Made by a program: the position numbers and the translations under genes. The notes below the pieces were generated by a model. It did no database searches and had not been told where the DNA came from. It was given only the letters and a program-made list of their open reading frames with translations. Shown here in pieces: positions 4,109 through 33,758 of a stretch of 35,522 nucleotides of DNA. This DNA comes from an uncultured Caulobacterales bacterium (GTDB lineage: Bacteria; Pseudomonadota; Alphaproteobacteria; Caulobacterales; Caulobacteraceae), in contig CAIUZX010000408.1 of assembly GCA_903903715.1 (NCBI GenBank), positions 1-35,522 on the forward strand. The letters run 5' to 3'. How positions within the stretch are numbered: the stretch's first letter is position 1; each line of letters begins with the position of its first letter.

Positions 4109-4805
4109 CCGACGGATCTGTCGATTCGAAGCGAAGTTCACCGACGGCGTCGATGCCGCGACCGAGGCCGGCCAGTTCGAAGGCTACGGCGCGATCTTCG
4201 GCAACGTGGACGCGTACGGCGACCTGATCCTCAAGGGCGCGTTCAAGCAGACGCTCCGCGCGTGGAAGTCGCTGAAGAAGCTCCCCCCGATGCTCCTGCA
4301 GCACGCCGGCGGCTGGTTCGGCGGGGCCGACGACTTCGTTCCGGTGGGCGTCTGGGACGAAATGATCGAGGACGAGAAGGGCCTGTTCGCCAAAGGGCAC
4401 CTCCTCGCGATGGCCACCGATCGCGGGCAGCAGGTCTACGAAGCCATGAAGGCCGGCTCGCTCGACGGGCTCTCGATCGGCTACCGCGCGAAGGAGTTCG
4501 TGCTCGGCACCAAGCCCACGGAGCCCCCGCGCACGCTGAAGCAGGTCGAGCTCGTCGAGGTGAGCATCGTGACCTTCCCGGCGAACGAAGCGGCCGTGGT
4601 AGACGCCGTGAAGGCGGGCGGGGGACTGACCGAACGAGAGTTCGAGCGATTCCTGCGGGACGCAGGGTTCTCTCGGGACGAGGCCAAAACCATTGTTGCC
4701 GAGGGCTATCGCGCGCTGAAGCGGGATGTGGACGAGCGCGGCGCCACGGCGGACATCGTCGCGAGCCTCAAGGCGCTCACCGAGCGCGTTGCGGCCGCGT
4801 GCTAA
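4101..4805 (+). CDS. HK97-family prohead protease, GTG start
   Basis: FEGYGAIFGNVDAYGDLILKGAFKQTL ... GHLLAMATDRGQQVYEAMKAGSLDGLSIGY. Confidence 0.92.
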   Translation: MRDRRICRFEAKFTDGVDAATEAGQFEGYGAIFGNVDAYGDLILKGAFKQTLRAWKSLKKLPPMLLQHAGGWFGGADDFVPVGVWDEMIEDEKGLFAKGHLLAMATDRGQQVYEAMKAGSLDGLSIGYRAKEFVLGTKPTEPPRTLKQVELVEVSIVTFPANEAAVVDAVKAGGGLTEREFERFLRDAGFSRDEAKTIVAEGYRALKRDVDERGATADIVASLKALTERVAAAC

Positions 4806-9773: not shown

Positions 9774-10133
9774 GTGAACGCATTGAGCCGGGAGGGCCTG
9801 TTGGCGGCCCTCCCCACCGTGTTGCCGGAGCCCGTCGCGGTGCCGGCGCTGGATCTCGTCGTCTTCGTGCGGCCGCTGTCCGGGATTCAGCGGGACGCGC
9901 TCGAGCTGAATCAGCACGAACGCCGGCGCAAGGGTCTCCCGCCGAACTTCCGCGGGATGATCGTGGCGCTCGGCGCGTGCACCGAATCCGGCGTCCGCGT
10001 CTTCACGGATGAGGACGCGGAGGCGTTGGGCGCGGTGCGGGCCGACGTGCTCGAACCGATCGCGGAGAAGATCCAGCAGGCGTCGGGCTACAGCGTGGCG
10101 GACGTCAAAGCCCTGGGAAAAGACTTGGCCTGA
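9774..10133 (+). CDS. Tail assembly chaperone (G-like), GTG start
   Basis: Between tail-tube and tape measure genes; ends after slippery heptamer GGGAAAA. Confidence 0.8.
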   Translation: MNALSREGLLAALPTVLPEPVAVPALDLVVFVRPLSGIQRDALELNQHERRRKGLPPNFRGMIVALGACTESGVRVFTDEDAEALGAVRADVLEPIAEKIQQASGYSVADVKALGKDLA

Positions 10134-31013: not shown

Positions 31014-31358
31014 ATGGCAGGCACTTTTCTCGACACGCTCCGGGAGATCCGGCGAGGCGTCAGTCTCGAGGAACTGAGTGACCAGCTGGCGGCGTTGGTC
31101 GCCTCGGTCCGGGAGACCGGCCGACCCGGCAAGTTGACGTACACGCTCGTCGTCAAGCCCGCGAGCAAGGGCGACACGAACACCCTCATGGTGCAGGACG
31201 CGATCAAAGTCGCGGCGCCTGTCCTGGAGCGCGCCACCACCGTGTTCTACGCCACCACCAACAACGAACTGCAGCGGAACGACCCGCGCCAGCCAGAACT
31301 CATCGGCCTGCGCGTACTCGACCACCCGGGCGGAAAGGACCAGGCCGCAAATGGATAA
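31014..31358 (+). CDS. Conserved phage protein adjacent to DUF2303 gene
   Basis: RBS aaaggag; 114 aa; synteny. Confidence 0.55.
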   Translation: MAGTFLDTLREIRRGVSLEELSDQLAALVASVRETGRPGKLTYTLVVKPASKGDTNTLMVQDAIKVAAPVLERATTVFYATTNNELQRNDPRQPELIGLRVLDHPGGKDQAANG

Positions 31359-32169
31359 CGAGACTCTCAGCCCTGACACACCGGCGACCACCTTCGCCGC
31401 GGGCCTACACGCGGCCACGCCGCGACAGGTCACCCAGCCCGGACAGTACGCCGTCGTGCCGGAGGGCGCGGCCCTGCACAGCCTCGAGGGCTACCTGCCC
31501 GCGCCGTCCCGCATCCGCACGACGATCGGGTTCTACGAGGCGGCGAGCTTCTGCCGCTACGTGCTCGACTTTAAGGATGCCTGGTCCCGCATCTTCGCCG
31601 ACCAGGCGGGGCTCTCCCTGTGTGCCTATCTCGATTACCACGCCGCCTCGACGGGCCCGCGGTGGGGCAGTCACATCGCCACGCTCGGTCTGCGGCTGAC
31701 CGAGGCGTGGAAGAAGTGGATCAGCGCCAACGGCAAGCGGATGGACCAGGTCACGTTCGCCTCGTTCCTCGAGGACAACCTGGTCGACATCGCCGCGCCG
31801 GACGGGGCCACGCTCCTTGAGATGGCGAAGAACCTCGAGGTGAAGAAGGCCGCAGCATTCACGTCGGCGATTCGCCTCGACAACGGCGAGCACCAATTCG
31901 GCTACGTCGAGGACATCCAGGGCACGGGGCAGAAGGGCACGATCACCATCCCCGGCTCGTTCGTGCTCGGCATCGCCCCCGTCGAGGGCGTGGAGCCCTA
32001 CCGCGTCGACGCGCGGCTGCGCTACCGAATGCAGGACGGCAAGCTGGCGATCTGGTTCGACCTCCTGCGCCCGGACGATTACCTCCGCGACGCGTTCAAG
32101 TCGGTCGTCGAGTTCGTGAAGACGCAGACCCAGCTCGACGTGCTGCTGGGCGGCGTAGCCAAGAGTTGA
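31351..32169 (+). CDS. DUF2303 (YfdQ-like) protein
   Basis: LHSLEGYLPAPSRIRTTIGFYEAASFCRYVLDFKD...LCAYLDYHAASTGPRWGSHIATLGL. Confidence 0.8.
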   Translation: MDNETLSPDTPATTFAAGLHAATPRQVTQPGQYAVVPEGAALHSLEGYLPAPSRIRTTIGFYEAASFCRYVLDFKDAWSRIFADQAGLSLCAYLDYHAASTGPRWGSHIATLGLRLTEAWKKWISANGKRMDQVTFASFLEDNLVDIAAPDGATLLEMAKNLEVKKAAAFTSAIRLDNGEHQFGYVEDIQGTGQKGTITIPGSFVLGIAPVEGVEPYRVDARLRYRMQDGKLAIWFDLLRPDDYLRDAFKSVVEFVKTQTQLDVLLGGVAKS

Positions 32170-32175
32170 GATCGG

Positions 32176-32263
32176 GCGCCAGGCCGCGGCCTGAGAACAG
32201 GCCGGCACCGAGCATTGACCTCCTTCAAGGCGAGCGGCAGGGTGAACCTGCCCGGCCTGGCGC
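32176..32263 (+). ncRNA. Unassigned structured element: multi-branch junction closed by an 11-bp perfect stem
   Basis: P1 32176-32186/32253-32263 (11 bp), P2 32187-32193/32198-32204 (7 bp, AGAA loop), P4 32236-32241/32247-32252 (6 bp, GUGAA loop). Confidence 0.5.
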
Positions 32264-32288
32264 AGGGAGCAGACGAAGGGAGTTTCGA

Positions 32289-32519
32289 ATGGCAGTCAGA
32301 GGCAAGTTCACAGTGATCGAGCGGGCGAGGTTCCACTGGAGCCCAAAGACCGAACGGGTCGTGCTGCAACCGGAGTATGACTCGAGCGTGCCAGAGGACC
32401 AGCGGTATTTCGACGCCACGCCACACGGGCGGATCGAGATGCAGATCAACAACCCGGCGGCGCTCGAGCAGTTCACGCTCGGGCGGAAGTTCTACGTCGA
32501 CTTCAACCCGGTCGAGTAG
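32289..32519 (+). CDS. Small conserved phage protein
   Basis: MAVRGKFTVIERARFHWSPKTERVVLQPEYD...; RBS gaaggga. Confidence 0.6.
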   Translation: MAVRGKFTVIERARFHWSPKTERVVLQPEYDSSVPEDQRYFDATPHGRIEMQINNPAALEQFTLGRKFYVDFNPVE

Positions 32520-32858: not shown

Positions 32859-33758
32859 GTGGCCTGGACGAGGGTTGATGACGGGTTCCTTGGGCATCCG
32901 AAGGTGACGCGGGCGGCCGAACGGCTTGGCCGCTGGGGGCTGGGTCGCGTGTTGGTGATCTGGCACCAAGGCCAGGCCCATGCCAGCCGCTATCTCACCG
33001 ACGGCATCCTCTCCCGCGAGAGCGTGGCGCGCTTCCATGACGACCCGAAGCCCCTGGTGGTCGCGGAGGCGCTGGCCGAGGCGGGGCTCTGGGAGACCGT
33101 CGACGGCGGGTATCGCATCCACGACTACCTGGACTACAACTTATCCGCGGCGGAAGTCGAGCGGAAGAAGGAGGCCGACCGCACACGGAAAGCCGGGGGA
33201 GGCCGCCCGGATTCCGGCGCGACTCCACCAGGAACGCCGCCGGATTCCGCTCCGACTCCTGACGGAATCCAGCCGGAGGAAACACGGAGCCCTCGCGCGC
33301 GCTCCCGCGATCCCATCCCACGTACGTCCCACGTACGTCCCCACGGGTGTGTGACACCCCTGGGGCTGCGGCCGCGCGTCGACGTGGCCTGGCCGGGACG
33401 GCCGTCCGTGCCGGGTACGCTGCACGTTGAATTCCGCCAGAAGCTGGGCGGGGACGAGGACGCAGCCGATCGGGCGCTACACACGTGGTATCCGACTGTG
33501 GCGGCAGCCTGGGAGGACCGCGCCATCGGGGACGACGACTTCCGGTTCTGGCGGGCGCGCTTCCGCGAGTGGGTCGGCACGACCGTTGTCAGCGACCAGG
33601 ACGCCTCGGCGCTCGCGCGCAAGATCGGCCCGACCTCCACCGCTGACGACGACTGGTTCAACGAGTGCCAGCGGCTGCACGGCGGCCGGTGTAACGGCTC
33701 TGGCGGGCACCGGGTGCAGATGGCGATCGCCGGCGAGAAGGCGGCGGTGGCTGTATGA
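32859..33758 (+). CDS. Phage replisome organizer / replication initiator-like protein
   Basis: MAWTRVDDGFLGHPKVTRAAERLG...GILSRESVARFHDDP...DYLDYNLSAAEVERKKEADRTRKAGGGRP. Confidence 0.65.
   Translation: MAWTRVDDGFLGHPKVTRAAERLGRWGLGRVLVIWHQGQAHASRYLTDGILSRESVARFHDDPKPLVVAEALAEAGLWETVDGGYRIHDYLDYNLSAAEVERKKEADRTRKAGGGRPDSGATPPGTPPDSAPTPDGIQPEETRSPRARSRDPIPRTSHVRPHGCVTPLGLRPRVDVAWPGRPSVPGTLHVEFRQKLGGDEDAADRALHTWYPTVAAAWEDRAIGDDDFRFWRARFREWVGTTVVSDQDASALARKIGPTSTADDDWFNECQRLHGGRCNGSGGHRVQMAIAGEKAAVAV
33207..33270. repeat. Iteron-like direct repeats plus inverted core within the initiator gene
   Basis: CCGGATTCCGGCGCGACTCC (33207-33226) and CCGGATTCCGCTCCGACTCC (33240-33259), 17/20 identical, 33 bp apart; inverted CGGAATCC (33263-33270). 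Confidence 0.6.
33317..33338. repeat. Two tandem copies of CCCACGTACGT
   Basis: Read directly: cccacgtacgtcccacgtacgt. Confidence 0.9.

Follow-up and report, generated by a model that had tools for sequence, protein, structure and literature searches.

Structured elements between the genes of an operon belong to several described classes, and the 88-nt element analysed here shares some properties with each. Like intrinsic (Rho-independent) terminators and attenuators, it has a stable, G+C-rich stem directly after the stop codon that ends a gene pair, but it is multi-branched rather than a simple hairpin and has no T-run. REP elements are dispersed repeats; with REP-like and other 3'-end-stabilizing intercistronic hairpins the element shares G+C-rich inverted repeats between genes of one operon, whereas it is single-copy, with no repeat copies in its own genome bin. 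Its best fold, four helices around a junction, recalls a tRNA-like cloverleaf but lacks a T-loop and an anticodon arm. The put RNA of phage HK022, two stem-loops of about 70 nt near an early promoter (PMC9378689), is likewise a compact phage RNA with stable hairpins; its stem-loops are separate, however, whereas the hairpins of the present element are intergenic and lie inside an 11-bp outer stem.

The gene directly 5' of the element encodes a DUF2303 (YfdQ) protein. Such proteins occur widely among phages and prophages; the portion of the literature consulted describes no established role for them. The DUF2303 protein of phage JC1, gp10, was detected in virions, and an association with DNA has been suggested for it (PMC9144972). 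In E. coli, initiation of replication is inhibited by extra copies of yfdQRST (PMC4776307). An element that recurs after DUF2303 genes would provide a handle on these proteins, whether it is ordinary operon architecture or a binding site that reveals the protein's role.

Genomic context of the element

The window, i.e., the whole stretch of 35,522 nt that was analysed, is contig C408 of a genome bin with 607 contigs. It contains a tailed-phage gene set (terminase, portal, head maturation protease, major head protein, connector, and tail genes), all on the + strand, where the tail genes are followed by ParB-like, phrog_204, DUF2303, 77-aa, replication-initiation-like, DUF5131, and HNH genes (Table 1). 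The gap from the DUF2303 stop (32169) to the ATG at 32289 spans 32170-32288 and has the 119 nt reported in a preliminary description of the locus. Outer stem P1 starts after 6 nt from the DUF2303 stop and only 11 nt are left before the next Shine-Dalgarno (SD) sequence; with such short spacing at both ends, it occupies the room between a ribosome that finishes one gene and a ribosome that starts the next.

Table 1. Genes and structural parts at the 3' end of the phrog_204-DUF2303 gene pair (window coordinates)
Feature	Position	Strand	Evidence
phrog_204 family gene, function not assigned to family	31014..31358	+	E 1.6e-18
DUF2303 gene (PF10065, phrog_210, YfdQ family), directly 5' of element	31351..32169	+	E 1.6e-58
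P1 5' arm GCGCCAGGCCG, 11 bp with 32253-32263	32176..32186	+	pair probabilities 0.87-1.0
P2 hairpin CGGCCTG-AGAA-CAGGCCG, 7 bp, flush with P1	32187..32204	+	pair probabilities 0.95-1.0
Junction linker GCACCGA, unpaired	32205..32211	+	computed fold
P3, weak third hairpin with competing pairings	32212..32235	+	computed fold
P4 hairpin GGCAGG-GTGAA-CCTGCC, 6 bp, flush with P1 3' arm	32236..32252	+	pair probabilities 0.99-1.0
P1 3' arm CGGCCTGGCGC	32253..32263	+	sequence, computed fold
Shine-Dalgarno-like GAAGGGAG of downstream gene	32275..32282	+	sequence; 11 nt from element
Small 77-aa gene 3' of element, resembles C-terminal part of phrog_6978	32289..32519	+	E 5.3e-10
Replication-initiation-like gene (phrog_2447)	32859..33758	+	E 7.5e-24

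Compared with a deposited YfdQ structure of 36 chains (9o7m), the DUF2303 protein of the window gave a weak match (E 0.002). The 77-aa protein is similar only to the C-terminal ~75 residues of phrog_6978, and its relatives in other phages are found in unrelated places, among tail genes or lysis genes. Directly 3' of one such relative, in locus L002, lies a tRNA-Ile with anticodon TAT (4111-4201).

Structure and stability of the fold

The helix arms lie exactly where the preliminary description had placed them: the outer arms pair at 11/11 positions, and the P2 and P4 sequences were confirmed. The three main helices thus named comprise 11, 7, and 6 perfect Watson-Crick pairs, with pair probabilities of 0.87-1.0, and the folding energy of the element calculated with RNAfold is -55.3 kcal/mol. 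Shuffles of the same composition do not fold equally well, 0/5000 dinucleotide shuffles being as stable (mean -37.3, sd 3.5; z -5.2); in a 131-nt context, z is -3.2. When 90-nt folds were adjusted for G+C content, the element ranked first of 4726 windows on both strands, although its residual of -4.15 sd is nearly equalled in three shuffled versions of the whole window (-2.8 to -4.1), so that folding energy alone is extreme but not beyond chance window-wide. Unlike folding energy, the architecture is beyond chance for a window-wide search. Flush three-helix layouts in which the outer stem had 8 bp or more and each of the two hairpins 5 bp or more occurred 0 times in 40 simulated windows, under a random model that misses repetition of the kind seen here, where CAGGCCG/CGGCCTG occurs four times in 80 bp and P2 and the inner part of P1 are consequently non-independent. 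The fold, the shuffles, and the simulated layouts support the flush helices and multi-branched, cloverleaf-like junction that had been predicted.

Other predictions fared differently. Pairing in the middle of the element was recovered, its best helix being the weak P3, while the CCTT/AAGG and TTGA/TCAA pairings originally suggested there are minor alternatives only. A two-state switch had been envisaged from pairing of 32198-32205 with 32252-32259; this pairing exists on paper, but the best energy of the alternative state is -42.3 vs. -55.3 kcal/mol, i.e., 13 kcal/mol less stable, with pair probabilities of zero at equilibrium, and the switch was rejected. Judged by these computed folds, the element is a genuine, very stable structured spacer with a fixed structure.

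We also compared the element with known classes of sequence. ARAGORN calls no tRNA, in keeping with the preliminary description, and neither a T-arm, an anticodon arm, nor an acceptor end was found. The Rfam search proposed in that description was run and gave no Rfam 15 family above its gathering score. Translation through the gap was considered and discarded: a frame is open from TTG 32166, but its third-position GC of 0.63, vs. 0.82-0.92 in the four neighbour genes measured, is not coding-like. A G+C-rich stem-loop, as in an intrinsic terminator, is present, whereas AGGGAGCAGA rather than a T-run directly follows the stem, and a terminator scan found nothing at the element. The region from 28.0 to 35.5 kb showed no promoter-like site on its + strand.

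Search for relatives of the element

Searches of phages, plasmids, and 61 related genomes found no sequence relatives of the element; a 33-bp match to a Streptomyces plasmid (E 2e-3) covered 24% of the query only and was taken as chance. A pattern scan of viral and genome contigs found none, and a single-sequence covariance model yielded no convincing match in 289 genomes of the class or in 100 fetched loci. The match of this model to viral contig L158 (9144-9221; 18.8 bits, E 0.0099) was the best of several weak ones and fell within a ParB-like gene, and it was set aside. In phages sharing TerL with the window, the genes around the replication genes are arranged differently, and no matching element was found.

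The neighbourhood has its closest relative in L158, in which phrog_204, DUF2303, and DUF5131 are 84%, 67%, and 61% identical, respectively, and DUF5131 follows DUF2303 without the 77-aa and replication genes in between. Its gap 3' of DUF2303 is 76 nt and contains a different long hairpin (z -2.7 to -3.7), again with no T-run. Given the missing T-runs of the two loci and the negative terminator scan at the window element, classical or strong intrinsic termination is unlikely for such copies. Since L158 keeps DUF2303 and a gap hairpin without a homologue of the 32289 gene, and since homologues of the latter sit in unrelated neighbourhoods, the element probably belongs with the DUF2303 gene upstream and not with the gene that follows it. 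A link to the 77-aa gene had been considered and was rejected; the gap at its relative in L002 is not unusually folded. The different hairpin of L158 at the same spot led to a general survey of DNA 3' of DUF2303 genes.

Structured DNA downstream of DUF2303 genes

For 21 records of diverse phages, we read the annotation around DUF2303 genes. In 16/21 of these annotated DUF2303 phages, 56 nt or more separate the DUF2303 gene from the next gene on its strand, and most of the 16 gaps contain a strong hairpin, e.g., 14 bp (perfect) in Jollymon, 11 bp in a Labrenzia phage, 10 bp in JC1 and in Caulobacter W2, and 9 bp in Vibrio 36E38.1 and in SfV. Relative to similar-size gaps in the same loci, the post-DUF2303 gaps were more strongly folded (median z -2.9 vs. 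-1.3, one-sided p = 0.005). DUF2303 ends were also more structured than 81 other gene ends in the 21 annotated loci (p = 7e-6), in part because other gene ends often run straight into coding DNA, a bias that the gap-matched test (p = 0.005) addresses. In the same comparison, phrog_204 ends showed no such effect.

A wider test took in 39 loci (the window, L158, L160, L161, L015-L017, L027, L163-L183, and L185-L194), including genome loci from a profile search. The 80 nt after the DUF2303 stop had a median percentile of 0.10 among windows of their own locus (KS p = 1.4e-7), in a set whose loci are not fully independent and which retains the first few loci, those that prompted the hairpin test; an extreme fold is absent in about half of the 39. 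In unrelated phages and genomes, the DNA 3' of the DUF2303 stop is unusually strongly structured, with no shared sequence. At the equivalent spot Pasteurella phage Pmp13 has a plain intrinsic terminator (GCCCGC-TATTT-GCGGGC-TTTTT), and Arthrobacter phages retain the stem despite two changes, both one-sided only. Sense and antisense folds of 18 gaps were equally good (p = 0.21), so that this comparison gave no signal by which to tell action as RNA from action as DNA. The post-DUF2303 gap of Arthrobacter phage Karkharias (L163, ~2370-2470) contains a T-arm-like GGTTCGAATCC near a CCA-like end, where ARAGORN calls no tRNA.

The most plausible reading of the window element is that of an elaborated example of a hairpin slot, conserved in position but variable in sequence, at the 3' end of the phrog_204-DUF2303 unit. 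As the window copy demonstrates, a multi-branched fold can occupy the slot in place of a plain hairpin. A term search of part of the DUF2303 literature met no description of the slot, which is likely to be novel with respect to the sources covered.

Possible functions of the element

We favour, with a probability of roughly 0.45, the view that the element is a non-coding RNA structure that ends the phrog_204-DUF2303 transcription unit and acts as an mRNA boundary. It would fold in the nascent RNA after the last ribosome leaves the DUF2303 stop, and would set the translation of DUF2303 apart from translation of the following gene. By slowing or partly terminating RNA polymerase and/or blocking 3'-5' exonucleases, it may protect the upstream mRNA and favour output of DUF2303 over that of the small gene and the replication initiator further downstream. 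Partial attenuation, protection of the upstream 3' end, and insulation of translation would be the most economical functions. A slot that is conserved while its sequence varies is as expected if the stability of the structure is what matters. Against such a boundary, a single hairpin would suffice and a cloverleaf is not needed.

Unlikely, though the best placed of the alternatives, is an element that acts as DNA, i.e., a protein-binding inverted repeat or an extrudable cruciform by the replication genes, such as a replication or single-strand initiation site, or a target of the ParB-like or DUF2303 protein. The three strong helices are all perfect Watson-Crick, and the complement of the element folds as well as the element itself (-55.5 vs. 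-55.3 kcal/mol). Genes for the replication initiator and the ParB-like protein are close by; in other loci, SSB, polymerase, DnaN, or ParB genes often adjoin DUF2303 genes, and the virion-associated gp10 of JC1 has been proposed to associate with DNA (PMC9144972). The fourfold CAGGCCG/CGGCCTG at the element could likewise suit a binding site, but this 7-mer is common across the window (35 copies, two orientations counted). Moreover, neither an AT-rich stretch nor a skew turn occurs at the element, and the hairpin sequence varies between phage groups, unlike the site of a conserved protein.

The same repetition could have arisen without any function, and a neutral leftover of an inverted duplication ranks next, also as an improbable explanation. 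P2 and the inner half of P1 copy one CAGGCCG/CGGCCTG unit, as template switching would give, and the element had no relatives in any collection searched. P4 and outer P1, however, are independent perfect helices, and hairpins recur at the equivalent position in unrelated phages, which a neutral origin does not readily accommodate.

Alongside the favoured mRNA boundary stands a more speculative proposal, which we regard as a long shot: that the position-conserved hairpin behind the stop of tailed-phage DUF2303/YfdQ genes works together with the DUF2303 protein. As RNA, it would be the target through which the protein regulates its own gene; as DNA, it would be a site used in replication or packaging. 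The window cloverleaf would then be its most elaborate form.

P3 contains, at 32218-32225, ACCTCCTT, identical to the anti-Shine-Dalgarno core (RNA form ACCUCCUU). Neither strand of the window has another copy, and this one is placed in the least paired part of the element, where CCTTC (32222-32226) is predicted to be mostly unpaired (probabilities 0.97, 0.97, 0.98, 0.76, and 0.72). The apparently exposed ACCUCCUU stretch is a notable lead, as the downstream SD GAAGGGAG can pair with UCCUUC. Still more doubtful than a DUF2303 partner is that the element is a trans- or cis-acting RNA that displays this stretch and keeps ribosomes from binding to phage or host messages, or to the SD ~50 nt downstream. 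The motif was noticed after the fact, and any given 8-mer is expected ~0.5 times per strand; the hairpins of L158 and other loci do not have it in their loops, and the missing promoter-like site and Rfam match further argue against a regulatory RNA. Finally, a factor-independent antiterminator like HK022 put is very improbable, the likeness ending at similar size (about 70-90 nt), stable hairpins, and a phage operon, since put RNAs are two stem-loops downstream of early promoters (PMC9378689), whereas the hairpins of this element lie within an outer stem and the sequence upstream showed no promoter-like site on the element's strand.

Elsewhere in the window, the second strongest G+C-adjusted fold (-57.5 kcal/mol) is at 9961-10050 (+), among small overlapping ORFs 3' of the major tail genes.
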